A stretch of DNA of 22,108 nt from a virus: positions 1-22,108 of IMG/VR virus record IMGVR_UViG_3300043496_000066. One strand, 5' to 3'. Made by a program: the position numbers and the translations under genes. Below, in pieces: positions 1,975 through 8,293 of the stretch (its first letter is position 1; every line of letters starts with the position of its first letter). The notes under the pieces are model-generated. The model made no database searches, was not told the origin of the DNA, and worked only from the letters and a program-made list of their open reading frames with translations.

Positions 1975-2810
1975 GTCATGTCCATTAGCGATAGCTGACG
2001 GAATTCACAGGACTGACAGAGCTGGCCAGCCGGTTTGGGTTCCTTGCCTCTGGCCATACCCCATTCACACCAGCGCAAACCCTTGTTGCGGCATTCCTGT
2101 TCCAGTGCTGTGAGCCTGTTATCAAAGTCTGGGTAGAAGAACCTGATCAGCTCTCGCTCCTCTCGGGCAGGCCCTTGAGAGGCCATAGCTCCACAGAGAC
2201 ATTCCCCAGACATGTGCAGGTGGACAGCAACCTCATTCACTGGGAGAGACATGGCAGAGCGGTATTCAGCCATGTTGGCATGACTCCAGAACAGGAGAGG
2301 GTTAACCCAGACCTGGCCACCAGTACGGTTCACAGGATCCTTGTATCCCATCCGCCTGACAGATTCTGCTTGTCTGACGCCAGTGAGAAGCATGAAGCGT
2401 TCACCCCGGAATGTTCTGTGGTGACGCAGCAGCGCCATCACACAGCGTTCCTTGAGACGCTGGTATGTCAGGTAGTGGGCTCCAGGCCCTGGCATTCCAC
2501 CCCAGTTGTTGAGCACCAGATGCTCATAGCTGTCAGGAGGAGTCATCTCTGTGAAGGGGACTCTGTAGCCGGCAGCAGTGCGTCTGGCGAAATCTGTGGT
2601 CTCAGGAATACCGATTCCAGTATTGATATGGACGATTTCGTCGTACTGGCCAGCCAGAGCATCCAGTAGCACCAGAGAGTCATTCCCTCCACTGAACAGC
2701 AGGAAGGTTCTGGAGGGCTGATACTTGGCTTTAGCCGCAGACATGATCTCCCTGGTCTGAGCCAGAGCATCCTCTAGGGACACTTCAAAGAGACGTAGCT
2801 GGTCAGCCAT
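1971..2810 (-). CDS. PAPS-reductase-like PP-loop protein (phosphoadenosine phosphosulfate reductase family)
   Basis: Encodes 279 residues from the ATG at 2810; the frame runs open further upstream, but that part overlaps two coupled genes and is not coding-like. The PP-loop FLLFSGGNDSLVLLDAL (about 35-51) binds ATP or adenylated substrate; the usual SGGxDS has Asn at x. HINTGIGIPET is the next conserved block. A C-terminal cysteine set, SGECLCGAMAS plus LCQSCEF near the end, could hold zinc or an iron-sulfur cluster. The PP-loop superfamily includes PAPS reductases, QueC and the phosphorothioation protein DndC. Phage members are widespread, but their substrate is mostly unproven. Here it follows a nuclease and a membrane peptide in one coupled block. 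Family call firm, reaction unknown. Confidence 0.88.
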   Translation of the reverse strand: MADQLRLFEVSLEDALAQTREIMSAAKAKYQPSRTFLLFSGGNDSLVLLDALAGQYDEIVHINTGIGIPETTDFARRTAAGYRVPFTEMTPPDSYEHLVLNNWGGMPGPGAHYLTYQRLKERCVMALLRHHRTFRGERFMLLTGVRQAESVRRMGYKDPVNRTGGQVWVNPLLFWSHANMAEYRSAMSLPVNEVAVHLHMSGECLCGAMASQGPAREERELIRFFYPDFDNRLTALEQECRNKGLRWCEWGMARGKEPKPAGQLCQSCEFRQLSLMDMT

Positions 2811-2890: not shown

Positions 2891-3231
2891 AATTCACCTT
2901 CTTTCGGCAGCAGAGGCACCAGGTGCCTGAGATACAGGAAGCAGGGCCAGTAGGCGACAGAATCCAGTCCCAGGCCCACAGGTTTGGCAACCACCACAGG
3001 GATCTGCCGGCCAATAGCGGCAGTGTCTGCCTGACGCAGAGAGGCCGGGATGTCCAGGTTCCGTCTGGCCTTCACCTCGAAAGCCACGCCTGGTGTACCG
3101 ACAATGTCGGCCTCCTGGTGGCTGCCGTTGCGTCCGAGGGCTGCCCTGTGGGTGGTGGCCAGTGCGTAGCCATTGTCTCTCAGGTATCTGGCTACAGCCT
3201 GCTCTGCGTGCTTCCACGCTTCGTTGGTCAT
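2887..3231 (-). CDS. Holliday-junction-resolvase-like PD-(D/E)XK nuclease
   Basis: Encodes 114 residues from [11 protein letters not shown]. The ATG at 3231 overlaps the RecT stop (ATGA), which is why I do not use a longer frame to 3267. Motifs: Glu in the first helix ([14 protein letters not shown]), the HQEADIVG Asp on the first strand, and the FEVKAR ExK signature (about 54-59). This is the fold of archaeal-type Hjc resolvases and related phage nucleases. Next to RecT and an exonuclease it probably resolves recombination or replication branches, or debranches DNA before packaging. Fold call good; exact substrate inferred. Confidence 0.75.
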
Positions 3232-4124
3232 GACGCTTCCGTCGCTTCCCGGCACAGCTGCAGCCACTGGTTGGCCACGTCAGGACCGAATTTGCCGTCG
3301 CCGGCTTCATCGGGGAGCGGGAGGTTCTGGGCGTCCGCCTGTTCGAGAAGCCAACTGCGCTGCGAGGGCTGGAGCTTCCCGATTGCTTGACTGACCCTGC
3401 TCCTCATGCCTGCCTGAGTCTCATGAGAGGGCCCTAATTCGCCCCCTGCCGCCTTCAAAGGGGGTGGCAGGTCCACTCCATCAGGAGGGCCACTTGAAAC
3501 ACTCTGGCGGCTTTCTGTGACGGTATCAATTCTGTACTTCAAGTCTGAAGAGTTACTGGCCTGTCCCATTTCATCGGATGTGTAGAGGCCAGACAGCTTC
3601 TGAGGGAAGGCTTTACGCAGAGCCAGAGCCTCTGCACATTTAGCCAGCATCTCTGGTCCCATCTGAGCCCACATCTTGGTGGGCCTGCCTTCCTTTGTGG
3701 TCTGACAGTAGGAGTCATACAGGGCCACACCAGTGAACCTGGCTACGGCAGACTGTTCGGTAGCCCAGGTGCGTCCTCGCAGAACAGTGACCTTGGCGGC
3801 ACGTGGTTCATCAGGTCCCAGCCAGACATCAGCCCATTTACCATCAGGGCCACACCACAGAGGACCCTCCTGGCCCATCATCTCCTGGGTGTCAGCAGCC
3901 AGAGTCCTGAGCCCGTCAATGGACACCTGGGTCTGCATCACCTCAGTACGTAGCTGGGAGTCCCAGCGCTTGATCGCATAGATCTGACGTGCAAAGGGAT
4001 CGAGTCCTGTTCGTTCACACTGCTTCACGAACAGTTCCAGCTCTAGGTCGGTCGCTCCCTTGGCCACAGTGCGCTTGACCAGGTCCATCTGGGCTCTGAT
4101 GTCGGAAGGGCTGGTGAGGCTCAT
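3228..4124 (-). CDS. bet: RecT/Bet-type single-strand annealing protein
   Basis: Encodes 298 residues. The N-terminal two thirds matches the phage Bet/RecT family: [20 protein letters not shown], then [22 protein letters not shown] and [13 protein letters not shown]. These proteins anneal single strands made by the partner exonuclease. After residue about 190 there is a Ser/Pro-rich linker and a C-terminal helical part (about 235-298) that may contact partners. It overlaps the exonuclease stop by ATGA, so the two are translationally coupled, as in lambda Exo-Beta-like modules. The usual order and pairing make the call strong. Confidence 0.93.
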
Positions 4125-4945
4125 GCCGGGCTCCCGACAATGATGGGAGCCTGCTGGCCAGGAGACTTCTCAGCCTGCTTCCGCCAGAGGAACGCCTTCA
4201 CCAGAGCCAGGAAAATCTCATGTTCGGCAGGGCCAGCCTGGATTCCGTCCACCTGGAATTCCCCATCTCCGTAGAGATGGACGATGGCGCAGCCGGCTAC
4301 CGGTGGAAGCTCCTGGGTGCCCGTCTCGGTCAGGCCCTCATAGGTGACGGATTCTGTGCAGTACCTGTAGGCAGCCAGCTGGAGCCGCCACTGGTCCCAG
4401 TACTTGCCGGCGCCCAGTTTGGTGTTGCCGGTGGTCTTCAGGTCCAGGAGGAAGGGCTGGCCATCGATGGTGGCCCTCCAGTCGGTGGTACCGACGTACG
4501 TGAGCTCAGGACTGCGGTACCGCACACACTGCTCCCAGGACAGGGTGTCAGGCTTCAGACGCTCCCAGACCCTGGCCAGGCCATCAGCCATGGGCAGCAG
4601 GTCACGGTAGATGTCTGTCTCAGCCTTCTGACGCCAGAGCCGGGAGCCCTGACGCAGTTCCTGGATGACATCAGCCACCCTGACTGTGTGGCCCTGACAC
4701 CACTCAGCGTTTATCTGGTGGATGGCAGTCCCCAGCATGGCCCTGTGATCCCACACACCTCTGTGGTGACGGTATAGGGTGTCGACAGCATCATCTGGTC
4801 TCAGGGCCTGCCACTGGTCCAGATGGTGGACGGCATACTTGGCAGTCTCCCTGGCAGCTCCCCAGGACAGGCCTGGAGCAGACAGCAGAGAGAGGACCTG
4901 GGTAACAGAGGGCAGCCCACTGTTCGCATATGGCCTGTGCGCCAT
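4121..4945 (-). CDS. PD-(D/E)XK exonuclease, partner of RecT
   Basis: Encodes 274 residues. The order of motifs fits the RecB/lambda-Exo/Cas4-like nucleases: GTAIH (72-76), TTDW with Asp155, LLDLKTT with Asp168-x-Lys170, and QLAAYR (189-194). It would chew one strand of DNA ends to give the single strands that the neighbouring annealing protein uses. The ATG at 4945 has a strong AAGGGAG site about 5 bases upstream. It is the first gene of the leftward early operon and follows a leader of roughly 150 bases. Confidence 0.9.
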
Positions 4946-4973
4946 ATCACTCCCTTAGGGATAAGGGTGACCA

Positions 4974-5050
4974 GCACAGAGCCCAGGAATAGCAGCAGCA
5001 GTCACTGTCGCTAGCCCTGGTGTGGCGCCGAAAGGCACTGGGCTCTGTGC
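4974..5050 (-). repeat. Long-range inverted repeat in the leftward leader
   Basis: GCACAGAGCCCAG (4974-4986) and CTGGGCTCTGTGC (5038-5050) are perfect 13-base inverted copies around a 51-base loop. Both fall inside the probable untranslated leader of the exonuclease operon, so the RNA could fold into a large stem that may control elongation or translation. A smaller competing hairpin, CTGTG (5045-5049) with CACAG (5056-5060), uses part of the right arm. Confidence 0.65.
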
Positions 5051-5072
5051 AGTCACACAGGGCCAGTCCCCC

Positions 5073-5089
5073 ATCCTGGTCACCAGGAT
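5073..5089. promoter_or_regulatory. 17-bp palindrome, candidate operator
   Basis: ATCCTGG-TCA-CCAGGAT is a perfect 7-base inverted repeat with a 3-base centre. It lies about 20 bases past the -10 of the leftward promoter candidate, at roughly +13 to +29, where a repressor could block early transcription. No second perfect copy was spotted. It could also act as a short hairpin in the leader RNA. Confidence 0.5.
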
Positions 5090-5108
5090 TTGACTTTCTG
5101 TCCATCTA

Positions 5109-5137
5109 TCAATACTGCAGACAGAATCCCAGGTCAA
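5109..5137 (-). promoter_or_regulatory. Candidate leftward early promoter
   Basis: On the minus strand TTGACC (5137-5132) is followed after 17 bases by TATTGA (5114-5109). The -35 is good and the -10 is weak (first three bases match). It is correctly placed to drive the exonuclease-RecT operon through a leader of about 155 bases. Confidence 0.42.
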
Positions 5138-5365
5138 CCGTGGTGCGTGCTCACTGATGGATGCTCAGGGTGAACTTTCTGGATCAGGCAGTGGTCAGAA
5201 TCCACTGAGATAGGACAGGGCTAGGCGCTGTTACACACTCTGTGTGACCAAATGTGGCCCATTGTCAAGAAATTGACGGAATCCACACACAGGATTTCCT
5301 GCTCTGATACGTTCCAGGGAGTAGCAGCGGACTACAGGAGTCTTCAGGAAGGAGACAGGAGTTAG

Positions 5366-5476
5366 ATGAGAGACAGGGAGGTGGCCCTGGTGTTCTTCGC
5401 CCTCACAGTTCTTCTACTCCTCTCTGGCTTGACACTGTTCAGAGTGGACCAACTGGTGGAGATGTGCCCCAGATGA
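5366..5476 (+). CDS. 36-residue single-span membrane protein
   Basis: The ATG at 5366 follows a purine-rich ribosome site (GGAAGGAGACAGGAG). The product has a charged head (MRDRE), about 20 hydrophobic residues (VALVFFALTVLLLLSGLTLF) and a short tail ending in Cys-Pro-Arg, so it is a one-span membrane peptide. Its TGA overlaps the ATG of the next gene (ATGA). It is the first gene of the rightward lysogeny-type operon, so it may be made in the lysogen. Roles such as superinfection exclusion are possible but unproven. Confidence 0.68.
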   Translation: MRDREVALVFFALTVLLLLSGLTLFRVDQLVEMCPR

Positions 5477-5847
5477 GCAGGTTCAGGGCTGAGGTTCTGA
5501 AGCAGCGAGACAGCCGGCTCAATGAGGGCCTGCTGTGGGTGGGAGATAAGCCGTACCCAGCCCTCCTGGAGTCAGTCCGCCTCTCAGGCCCTGTCTACCA
5601 TCAGGTACGCAGAGCCATGATCCAGAGTGAAACAAGAATCTCTCTGTCGATTATCTGGGGCTGTGCCACCTGGTCAACTAACAGAGACGCCAGGTCAGCA
5701 GAATTCTTTGTGGAGGAGCCTACCAGTGTGGAAGTGGGGATTCTCTGGGATGGCCAGCTACTGGATGACCCTCTGGGCTACCAGACCACTGACCAGGTTC
5801 TGGCCCTTATCAGGGAGACTCAGGAGGGCAGATGGCCCAGTGGGTAG
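5473..5847 (+). CDS. Hypothetical protein, 124 residues
   Basis: I start it at the ATG at 5473 (MSRFRAEVLKQR), which overlaps the stop of the membrane peptide above; a GTG at 5464 in the same frame is less likely. The product is a mixed alpha/beta protein with an N-terminal basic helix, a central hydrophobic strand (ISLSIIWGCATWS) and an acidic C-terminal part. No motif or family is recognised. Position as second gene of the lysogeny operon makes it one candidate for an unfamiliar repressor or immunity protein, but it has no clear helix-turn-helix. Confidence 0.75.
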   Translation: MSRFRAEVLKQRDSRLNEGLLWVGDKPYPALLESVRLSGPVYHQVRRAMIQSETRISLSIIWGCATWSTNRDARSAEFFVEEPTSVEVGILWDGQLLDDPLGYQTTDQVLALIRETQEGRWPSG

Positions 5848-5924
5848 GCCTGCTCATCATAGGAATCATCTTCACAGTGGCAATGTATGACCACTACTCA
5901 TACAACAGGAAGGATGAGGAGTGA
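5832..5924 (+). CDS. 30-residue single-span membrane protein
   Basis: A strong ribosome site (AGGAGGGCAG) precedes the ATG at 5832, inside the 3' end of the gene above. The product has a hydrophobic span (WVGLLIIGIIFTVAM) followed by an aromatic and charged tail (YDHYSYNRKDEE), so a C-terminal cytoplasmic or surface tail is likely. Its TGA overlaps the GTG of the next gene (GTGA). With the 36-residue peptide it makes two micro membrane proteins in one operon. Function unknown. Confidence 0.68.
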   Translation: MAQWVGLLIIGIIFTVAMYDHYSYNRKDEE

Positions 5925-6073
5925 ACCTCAGGGAACTGATGGACCAGCTGGCATCCATAATGCTGACTCAGGGAGACATGCCAGTACTGGGTGAGGAGGG
6001 AGAACCCCTTATCTCCCTGGAATTCAACGATGATGAGGAGCCCTGTGTTCTGCTTCTGTTCGGGGATGACTGA
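5921..6073 (+). CDS. Small acidic protein, 50 residues
   Basis: A GTG at 5921 overlaps the previous stop, with AAGGA upstream, and the frame stops at 6073 directly before the next ATG. The pattern (helix LRELMDQLASIM, then DMPVL, then acidic ISLEFNDDEEP and CVLLLFG) resembles a common class of small phage proteins of the 'xLIexLqxxpxdxxVxv' type, which are short helix-strand acidic proteins of unknown role. The likeness is a pattern judgement, not a database result. Confidence 0.65.
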   Translation: MNLRELMDQLASIMLTQGDMPVLGEEGEPLISLEFNDDEEPCVLLLFGDD

Positions 6074-6565
6074 ATGGCTGAATACTACGTATCAGCCCAC
6101 CCAGACTCCACAGGAGAACTAGCCACCCATTCTGATGATGGACTGGCATTCTGGACACCAGTCCTAGGGCCTACTGCGATGCTCCTGGCCTACTTCCTGG
6201 CAATGCAGGTGGAGGGAGAAGGCCCTGGGAAGGTCCTCCAGTCCCAGCTGTCCACTGACCTGGCTGTGATGCCCAGCAAAGTGGAATCCAGCCTGAACAG
6301 ACTAGCCAGACGCAACATCATTGATAGGGAGGCAGACCAGATTCTCATTCACCTGAACCTGCCCTACCCACATCCAGCTCCTGGTCCAGTGGCAGAAGCC
6401 CTCACTCTCACCATTCCTGAGGCAGCAGCCCTTCTGGGCATCTCTAGGTCAGCAGCCTACACAGCAGCCAGAACTGGGGAGCTACCCACAGTGCAGATAG
6501 GCAGACGATATCTGGTCCCCAGACACAGACTGAACCAGCTCCTGAAGGGTGAAGAGAATGACTGA
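6074..6565 (+). CDS. Winged-helix plus excisionase-like DNA-binding fusion
   Basis: Encodes 163 residues with two DNA-binding parts. Residues about 30-95 (FWTPVLGPTAMLLAYFLAM to RLARRNIID) look like a MarR/replication-type winged helix. Residues about 110-158 (LTIPEAAALLGISRSAAYTA, RTGELPTVQIGRRYLVPRH) are a clear MerR/Xis-type helix-turn-helix with the wing GRRYLV. Single-domain excisionases are usually 60-80 residues, so the added winged helix is unusual. Position a few genes upstream of integrase fits an excisionase/directionality factor or a lysogeny regulator, perhaps both in one chain. It begins right after the previous stop (TGAATG). Confidence 0.82.
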   Translation: MAEYYVSAHPDSTGELATHSDDGLAFWTPVLGPTAMLLAYFLAMQVEGEGPGKVLQSQLSTDLAVMPSKVESSLNRLARRNIIDREADQILIHLNLPYPHPAPGPVAEALTLTIPEAAALLGISRSAAYTAARTGELPTVQIGRRYLVPRHRLNQLLKGEEND

Positions 6566-6788
6566 GCAGAGGCAGGCTCTACATGCCTATCTGTCTGATG
6601 AAGCCTGGAACGCCTGGAGACTGTTCTCTGAGGAGAATGGGGTGAGCACTACAGGGCTCCTGGAGGCTCTGGGGCTGGAGCTGGCAGACCAGTTGGACGA
6701 CATAGAGGCAGACGAACTGAGGCAGCCCTGGGTGAAGGCCGGCAGGAAGATAGATGGCATCAGGAGACGCAGAGGAGGGCAACAGTAG
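6558..6788 (+). CDS. Small DNA-binding-like protein, 76 residues
   Basis: The ATG at 6558 overlaps the previous stop by 8 bases; a GTG at 6549 would add three residues. The core LSDEAWNAWRLFSEENGVSTTGLLEALGLEL resembles ribbon-helix-helix or similar small regulators that carry 'Sxxaxxxwxxfaxxxgvsxxxlleal'. An acidic linker and a very basic tail (GRKIDGIRRRRGG) follow; the tail could contact DNA. It probably acts with the excisionase-like protein or controls the operon. Ends TAG sharing a base with the next GTG. Confidence 0.7.
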   Translation: MTEQRQALHAYLSDEAWNAWRLFSEENGVSTTGLLEALGLELADQLDDIEADELRQPWVKAGRKIDGIRRRRGGQQ

Positions 6789-6967
6789 TGGAGGACTACG
6801 CCAAAGTGGTGGCAGAACTGGTGTGGACTGAAGCGGAGCTAGAGAAGAGAACCGCCGAACGGGACCGGCTGCGGGCGACGCTGGATTATGCCCGGCTCGT
6901 ACTCAACCGGGCACTTGACGTAAGCCCGAATACCGGCGACACACCAGATCCTGACCCCAGAACCTGA
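6788..6967 (+). CDS. 59-residue coiled-coil protein
   Basis: The GTG at 6788 shares its first base with the TAG above. Residues 2-45 (charged heptads such as ELVWTEAELEKRTAERDRLR) form one long amphipathic helix, probably a coiled coil, followed by a Pro/Asp-rich tail. The central part is rich in CpG (nine in 6841-6900 by my count), in contrast with the CpG-poor genes just upstream, which hints at separate origin. No function is recognised. Confidence 0.65.
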   Translation: MEDYAKVVAELVWTEAELEKRTAERDRLRATLDYARLVLNRALDVSPNTGDTPDPDPRT

Positions 6968-7091
6968 GACCCTACAGTCACAGGAAGAGTAGGTTTGAGA
7001 CCCTGCCGACTGTGCAGGTCCAGGGCCTGAAACGTATCCTGACCTGGGATTATTGCCTGTATCGGAATGTATCTGCAGTGGTACTCAGTAA

Positions 7092-7202
7092 ATGATGGAC
7101 ATGGCAGACAGACCCCTTAGAATGGCCCTTCTGGTGCCGACATGGTCTCAACCTGTTACCCTCTGCTGGGTACCAGTCACACCAGGAGGAGACCCAGGGT
7201 GA
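7092..7202 (+). CDS. Possible 36-residue leader ORF before integrase
   Basis: Tandem ATGs at 7092 and 7095 open a frame that ends in a TGA overlapping the preferred integrase GTG (GTGA), the coupling pattern of this genome. There is no clear ribosome site and the peptide (MMDMADRPLRMALLVPTWSQ...) has no recognisable fold. It may be a translated leader that couples integrase expression, or chance. Confidence 0.35.
   Translation: MMDMADRPLRMALLVPTWSQPVTLCWVPVTPGGDPG
7184..7191 (+). promoter_or_regulatory. Ribosome binding site for integrase
   Basis: AGGAGGAG is a near-perfect anti-16S match, 7 bases before the GTG at 7199. No comparable site precedes the ATG at 7142, so it decides the start of integrase. 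Confidence 0.7.
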
Positions 7203-8293
7203 AGCCTAGGATCAGAGCCAGAGCGGGACAGCCGGCAGCCCACTGGAACCAGAAGCGCCGAGAGTGGGAAACCAGAATCGGACTGCCCACTCAGCCAGGA
7301 CAGCCCAGGGTCCGGAAGTGGGTGAGGGCTAAGACTGAAGAGGAGTGTCTGGCTAAGGCCTGGCAGGCTCTGAACCAGCTGGCCGGCGAGGTGGCCCTCC
7401 CAGATGACAGTGAGACGCTGGGTGCTGTGGCCAGGCTATGGCTGGCCTTCATGGAGGGCAGGGTGTCTGACGGTTCCTGGGTCGCCTACAGGACCAGGGT
7501 GGAGCGTCACATCATCCCGATGCTGGGAACTAGAAGGCTGACGGCTCTGAAGACTGTGGATGTGGACCAGTGGCAGAAGGAGCTGGAGGCTAGGGGTCTG
7601 GCTGTGGCCACCAGAAGAGAAATCAGAAGCACCCTGGTCATCATCATTGAATGGGCCCAGGCCAGGGAGATGGTCACCAGGAATGTGGCTGCCCTGTCAC
7701 CAGGTCCTCGGGGAGCCGGCAAGAAGGTGGAGACTCTGACCAAACCTCAGGCTAGGGCTGTCCTGGAGAAGGTCGCCGGCTGGAGGTTTGAGGCGGCAGT
7801 CATCCTGATGATGATGACCGGTCTGCGCATCGGTGAAGCCCTGGGGCTCAGGTGGTCTGACATCAGTGAGGGCAGCGTCACTGTCGCCGGCCAGGTGGTC
7901 ACCAAACCCAAACTGCACTACCAGCCCTACCCGAAGACCGGACGCAGCTTCCGGACGGTAGACCTGCCTCCCAGAGCTCAAACAGCACTAGCGGCTCTAG
8001 GCCCAGGTGAACCCGCCGGCCATGTCTTCCTGAATTCCCGAGAGGGTCTGGTAGACCCCAGCGTCCTGGCCACCGAACTGAAGACCAGAACTGTCAGCCT
8101 CGGGGTAAACGTGCACCCTCACAAGCTGAGGCACACCGCTGCCAGTCTCATGATCGACAGTGGGGTGAGACTGGAGATCGTTTCTAAGATCCTGGGCCAC
8201 AAATCCATCAGGACCACCTCAGACATCTACGGCCACCTGCTGCCGGACGGTAGAGCAGAGGCAGCTGCAGCCATGGATGAGGCCTTGGGCTGA
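7199..8293 (+). CDS. int: Tyrosine-type phage integrase
   Basis: Encodes 364 residues from the GTG at 7199. I prefer it to the ATG at 7142 because a perfect AGGAGGAG (7184-7191) lies 7 bases upstream and the basic arm-binding N-terminus starts there. Catalytic residues on this numbering: Arg210 (TGLRIGEALGL), His308-x-x-Arg311 (HKLRHT), His334 (LGHKS) and nucleophile Tyr344 (DIYGH). The N-terminal region has an arm-binding domain, then a SAM-like core-binding domain (about 60-160). It recombines attP with a host attB. It is the last rightward gene, next to the candidate attP region, and follows an excisionase-like gene. Confidence 0.95.
   Translation: MKPRIRARAGQPAAHWNQKRREWETRIGLPTQPGQPRVRKWVRAKTEEECLAKAWQALNQLAGEVALPDDSETLGAVARLWLAFMEGRVSDGSWVAYRTRVERHIIPMLGTRRLTALKTVDVDQWQKELEARGLAVATRREIRSTLVIIIEWAQAREMVTRNVAALSPGPRGAGKKVETLTKPQARAVLEKVAGWRFEAAVILMMMTGLRIGEALGLRWSDISEGSVTVAGQVVTKPKLHYQPYPKTGRSFRTVDLPPRAQTALAALGPGEPAGHVFLNSREGLVDPSVLATELKTRTVSLGVNVHPHKLRHTAASLMIDSGVRLEIVSKILGHKSIRTTSDIYGHLLPDGRAEAAAAMDEALG

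Follow-up and report, generated by a model that had tools for sequence, protein, structure and literature searches.

A small ribbon-helix-helix-like protein and a conserved early leader as candidate parts of the lysogeny switch in a siphophage lacking a recognisable classic repressor

How might a phage maintain lysogeny when none of its genes encodes a recognisable repressor? The question was raised by the window analyzed here, a stretch of 22,108 bases that is the complete IMG/VR record IMGVR_UViG_3300043496_000066. An initial annotation had described a temperate-looking phage with no visible cI, XRE or ImmR-type protein, had listed three proteins of 163, 76 and 124 residues as candidates for the missing function, and had suggested that an integration-linked or fusion-protein switch might operate instead.

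The record is not circular. The N-terminus of the terminase lies at its left end and the remainder at its right end, and these pieces form a single ORF in relatives; the genome is therefore near-complete, and little can be missing. The phage is a small siphophage whose terminase shares approximately 33% identity with Arthrobacter phage terminases; the records matched are mostly actinobacterial phages. Every early gene and every structural gene is carried on the minus strand, and a plus-strand operon (5366-8293) diverges from exo (Table 1). In addition to exo and the RecT-like gene, the early genes encode RusA-like, PAPS reductase and HNH proteins, the PAPS reductase gene being located at 1971-2846 (PHROG 424, E 9e-21). 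Relatives were collected by searches with the terminase, the exonuclease and the family of the 76-residue protein, and eight further phages were found to hold the region (L015, L017, L019, L020, L023, L028, L040 and L041). L019 and L023 are near-identical across it, leaving eight distinct leaders among nine control regions. The exo product is 75-88% identical in relatives.

No cI, XRE or ImmR-type protein was found by Pfam and PHROGs in the lysogeny operon or among the early genes sampled, and no repressor-type HTH appeared in scanned early-gene products or in a sample of the structural genes. Within the lysogeny operon, HTH-type matches in these databases were confined to the 163-residue protein, which has an HTH_17 domain at residues 112-158 (Pfam, E 3e-12, which passes the curated cut-off) as well as a weak, sub-threshold MarR-like winged helix at residues 45-88. 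The proteins of 124, 50, 76 and 59 residues had no significant match in either database. In the lysogeny operons of the eight relatives, which were read through and from which selected proteins were scanned, there was likewise no cI/XRE-type gene; the lack of a classic repressor is thus a trait of the whole family. On this point the initial annotation was borne out, and its suggestion of looking for known repressors at the same place in relatives gave none of the cI/XRE type.

The phage is likely temperate, judging from its integrase, a conserved attP-like site and the Xis-like domain. Two limited genome scans for host prophages, by portal and by integrase, returned no related prophage or lysogen, so that the earlier description as temperate-looking is supported from the phage genome but not from the host side. 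Alignment of the integrase N-terminus with those of relatives makes a GTG start at 7199 more likely than ATG 7142. The conserved block preceding int looks like attP: each of the seven distinct phages with a tyrosine integrase has the pair of arm-type repeats and the core, and neither of the two serine-integrase phages does. In those two relatives a serine integrase replaces the tyrosine integrase (L018:209-1633(+) and L020:14280-15719(+)), and L020 nonetheless retains the same control region and the 76-residue gene. Once the phage has integrated, int could be driven from a promoter-like TGGACA-16-TAGAAT at 7096-7123, which lies between int and the attP-like core.

Table 1. Features of the lytic and lysogenic sides of the control region, in positions of the window
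Feature	Position	Strand	Remarks
RecT-like annealing protein, early lytic operon	3228..4124	-	PHROG 2780, E 4.8e-60
exo, exonuclease of the PD-(D/E)XK type, heading the early lytic genes	4121..4945	-	PHROG 298, E 1.6e-20
Non-coding control region, 420 bp	within 4946-8293		between exo and the plus-strand operon
Structured leader of the early lytic transcript, two alternative conformations	4946..5101	-	between P_L and exo
Small hairpin TCCC-TAA-GGGA	4951..4961	-	overlaps exo Shine-Dalgarno; alignment columns 151-161
Segment 3 (4974-4986) and outer-stem 3' arm CTGGTCACC (4966-4974)	4966..4986	-	
Hairpin 3	4983..5020	-	sequence variable, pairing conserved; 5 of 7 scored pairs changed on both sides
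Segment 2 GCACAGAGCCCAG	5038..5050	-	complements both segment 1 (upstream) and segment 3 (downstream)
Hairpin 1 of conformer A, segment 1 paired with segment 2	5041..5064	-	
Outer stem 5' arm GGTGACCAG	5076..5084	-	98% of helix cells pair across 8 phages
Candidate early lytic promoter P_L, TTGACC-N17-TATTGA	5109..5137	-	single match in window
Candidate lysogeny-operon promoter P_R, extended -10 TGATACGTT	5305..5313	+	conserved position
36-residue hydrophobic peptide, opens the plus-strand operon	5366..5476	+	read from sequence; no family match
124-residue protein	5473..5847	+	no family match; homologues in L019/L023 and L042
30-residue gene	5832-5924	+	
50-residue acidic protein	5921..6073	+	conserved in all relatives holding the region
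163-residue wHTH and HTH_17 (Xis-like) fusion	6074..6565	+	only in this phage
76-residue RHH-like protein, candidate repressor	6558..6788	+	present in all 9 lysogeny operons
59-residue protein, last gene before the attP-like block	6788..6967	+	weak match in L040
attP-like block	6961..7100	+	arm-type repeats GAGACCCT at 6966 and 6997, 31 bp apart
attP-like block, continued	7049 and 7089	+	core-like ATTATTGCCTGT at 7049, TAAATGATGGA at 7089
Tyrosine integrase	7199..8293	+	Pfam PF00589, E 5.5e-20

Among the proteins, the 76-residue product is now the best of the three candidates originally listed. Its gene is retained in operons with other accessory genes as well as in the one with a serine integrase. 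Members of the family also occur in three other phages (L035, L036 and L042); in L035 an XRE-type gene adjoins the homologue, which counts against a repressor role. A profile search of the nine phages revealed no further member except a diverged second copy in L041 (2822-3118(+)), where it is the last gene before attP. The L041 lysogeny operon also contains a short DpdA-like gene (2110-2580(+); Pfam DpdA, E 3e-43, with the profile partly covered).

A 5-sequence alignment gave a poorer model of the protein (pLDDT 67), and the model based on 12 sequences (pLDDT 83) was used instead. Foldseek searches with it returned mostly ribbon-helix-helix (RHH) proteins (Arc, CopG, PutA, MazE-type antitoxins, NikA, ParG and MatP), each at E 1-6 and none significant. 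A VIA comparison placed Arc and PutA at Z 4.1 below a top row, McdB (Z 5.6), that is not an RHH protein. Helices 14-27 and 31-46 align to Arc, CopG and PutA, and a basic C-terminal RRRR is conserved in the family. We hold with fair confidence, on the basis of the modeling, that the protein is probably a ribbon-helix-helix protein. The hallmark of this fold (MetJ/Arc/CopG) is an obligate dimer in which an N-terminal beta strand precedes two helices. That the monomer model lacks the strand is a genuine reservation, the N-terminal stretch where it is expected being modeled as helix at low pLDDT. No RHH family profile matched significantly the protein or the homologues scanned; RHH_7 gave a sub-threshold match to one homologue (E 0.13) and none to the protein of the window. 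A PDB sequence search with the protein gave no match, and searches of cultured phages and plasmids with the family brought nothing useful. The structure prediction proposed at the outset has thus yielded RHH-like matches but no single significant one. RHH proteins also act as antitoxins, partition adaptors and relaxase accessories, which counts against reading this one as a repressor.

The promoter-like sites that such a protein might control are conserved. The P_L pattern, as TTGACC-N17-TANNGA, occurs once in the window against 0.01 expected, and it lies at the same place in nine of nine control regions, as does the P_R pattern TGNTA(C/G)G(T/G)T. The repeats of CTGGTCACC were considered as operators and rejected, since folding and covariation identify them as arms of the outer stem of the leader; a candidate operator for a 76-residue repressor was thereby lost. 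GGTCA half-sites showed no clear enrichment.

The leader between P_L and exo is an element beyond the candidates of the initial annotation. In single-sequence folding all eight distinct leaders folded strongly (z -2.7 to -5). Their alignment contains 37 pairs with 94% paired cells, nine of them with changes on both sides, a covariation score reached by none of 500 shuffles. The RNAalifold energy was -49.1, compared with -14.1 (sd 3.3) for shuffled columns. The outer-stem helix is mostly invariant and hence shows little covariation. Segment 2 belongs to a 13-nt perfect inverted repeat, with a compensatory change relative to relatives (columns 60/133), and can pair with either segment 1 or segment 3. 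The two pairings are mutually exclusive, and the resulting conformers lie within approximately 3 kcal/mol of each other in all eight leaders; in eight phages the segments follow the order 1-2-3, and the middle one complements both neighbors. A covariance model of the leader matched strongly only at the leader in each relative, Rfam had no match to it, and when further leaders were sought by DNA pattern, just the known relatives and chance matches came up. The antisense strand folds about equally well (alignment z -10.6 sense, -10.4 antisense), so that the near-equal energies do not settle which strand carries the structure; we infer a minus-strand leader RNA from its position relative to P_L and exo.

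The likeliest on/off switch is formed by the Arc-like 76-residue protein and the conserved leader fold together. Under this proposal, lysogeny would be kept without a cI/XRE-type repressor. An Arc/CopG-like RHH dimer of the 76-residue protein, expressed from P_R as part of the lysogeny operon, would bind the control region that separates exo from the plus-strand operon, shutting P_L and silencing exo, RecT and the genes onward. Transcripts escaping from P_L would carry the bistable leader, which may impose a second control, at the RNA level, ahead of exo. After integration at the attP-like site, int would be parted from P_R, with the 76-residue gene remaining beside P_R. The proposal draws on a gene found in all relatives, its RHH-like model, the promoter-like sites and the conserved leader fold; from these we infer that the protein binds DNA, that P_L is its target and that it has a role in immunity. 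The specific assignment, with the protein repressing P_L and the leader providing a second control at the RNA level, is put forward tentatively, as somewhat short of an even chance. The leader is a candidate either for that second control or for the immunity determinant itself.

It is also conceivable, if on balance doubtful, that the leader is a cis element unrelated to immunity, serving put-like antitermination of the long lytic transcript, regulating the translation of exo, or acting as a replication origin linked to an RNA. It directly follows P_L on the strand that holds all lytic genes, early and late, and its small hairpin covers the exo Shine-Dalgarno. The leader matches no known RNA family, however, and although noncoding-RNA prophage origins are known in mycobacteriophages (PMC7157519), those belong to extrachromosomal parABS prophages, whereas the phage here has an integrase.

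The same structure would be explained by RNA immunity of the P4 type, in which processed segment 2 would pair with newly made P_L transcripts at their segments 1 and 3, stopping early lytic expression with no need of a protein repressor. The complementarity of segment 2 to both neighbors in eight phages, the two exclusive conformers of similar energy, the compensatory changes (the segment 2/3 pairing included) and the failure to find a protein repressor are all consistent with this mechanism. However, no intrinsic terminator was found in the leader on the minus strand, the two strands fold about equally, Rfam is silent, and cis-only roles account for the same data. We consider P4-type immunity in this phage quite unlikely. 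The broader proposition, that there are autonomous tailed phages which hold lysogeny by a P4-like RNA switch, having an RHH protein as sole protein repressor or none, and no cI-type protein, we regard as unlikely.

The 163-residue protein could tie immunity to excision if it were the repressor, as it unites two DNA-binding domains in one product of the lysogeny operon, and excisionases such as Apl of phage 186 can control lysis-lysogeny (PMC7498355). Its distribution speaks otherwise. None of the first ten relatives tested yielded the fusion, and the control region is conserved whether or not the fusion is present. In L028, the most distant relative, the winged-helix half is a separate gene, facing a convergent HTH_17 gene on the lytic strand; in the lytic operon, between exo and RecT, L028 and L040 carry a further HTH_17-like gene. 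A PDB sequence search with the protein gave nothing informative, and the winged-helix family had no useful match among cultured phages. This distribution makes the fusion an improbable repressor and tells against the fusion-protein switch suggested earlier.

Alternatively, the first gene or genes of the plus-strand operon might encode unrelated repressors swapped as a module, given that this position is occupied by the 124-residue gene here and by genes for 140 and 96 residues in relatives. That, too, is a poor prospect: no DNA-binding domain was recognised in the first-position proteins scanned, the control region is conserved though the first gene changes, and the 124-residue homologues in L019/L023 and L042 occupy other positions than here. 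Farther along the operon, the 59-residue gene (6788-6967) appears by eye more CpG-rich than its neighbors and is possibly a recent acquisition.

Integration-dependent immunity, as in mycobacteriophage BPs, is most improbable, and the integration-linked switch raised earlier is not supported: the attP-like block does directly precede int and the genes from P_R to int share its orientation, but the block overlaps merely the last codons of a preceding gene that differs between relatives, arm-type repeats are present, and by reading neither the integrase nor the 76-residue protein bears an LAA-type tag.

The lifestyle of phages known from sequence is often called temperate or not from the presence of an integrase and a repressor. 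If the 76-residue protein or the leader confers immunity, prediction based on repressors overlooks a class of temperate phages. Comparison of the relatives reduces the candidates for the switch to two, a small conserved protein and a leader whose structure is conserved.

Several known systems share parts of this arrangement. P22 has a separate c2 repressor beside Arc and Mnt, whereas no c2/cI-type repressor was found in this phage. The 76-residue protein is, like Arc and Mnt, small and phage-coded, and its model matches Arc across two helices (1myl, 1par, 1baz); it differs in an additional basic C-terminal helix. In P22, Arc and Mnt act on ant within the immI region (PMC2629481). The BPs and Brujita phages are alike in their tyrosine integrase, actinophage-like genome and lysogeny genes adjoining int. 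In BPs-type systems, attP lies inside the repressor gene, and there are no arm-type sites and no RDF (PMC9262239); here, the attP-like block is not within a repressor gene, and predicted arm-type repeats and an Xis-like HTH_17 domain are present. Apl and Pf XisF, excisionases acting as a switch, resemble the present case in that an Xis-like domain is encoded near the switch region, although here it is fused to a winged helix and in one phage only. The put antitermination RNA of HK022 is a structured leader right after an early promoter, as here, but the present fold is larger and multibranched. The P4 CI RNA works by pairing with seqA upstream and seqC downstream of CI (PMC4825925). The leader described here likewise precedes early genes and has a middle segment complementary up- and downstream; it belongs to an autonomous tailed phage and has no detected terminator, and the likeness to P4 is one of layout.
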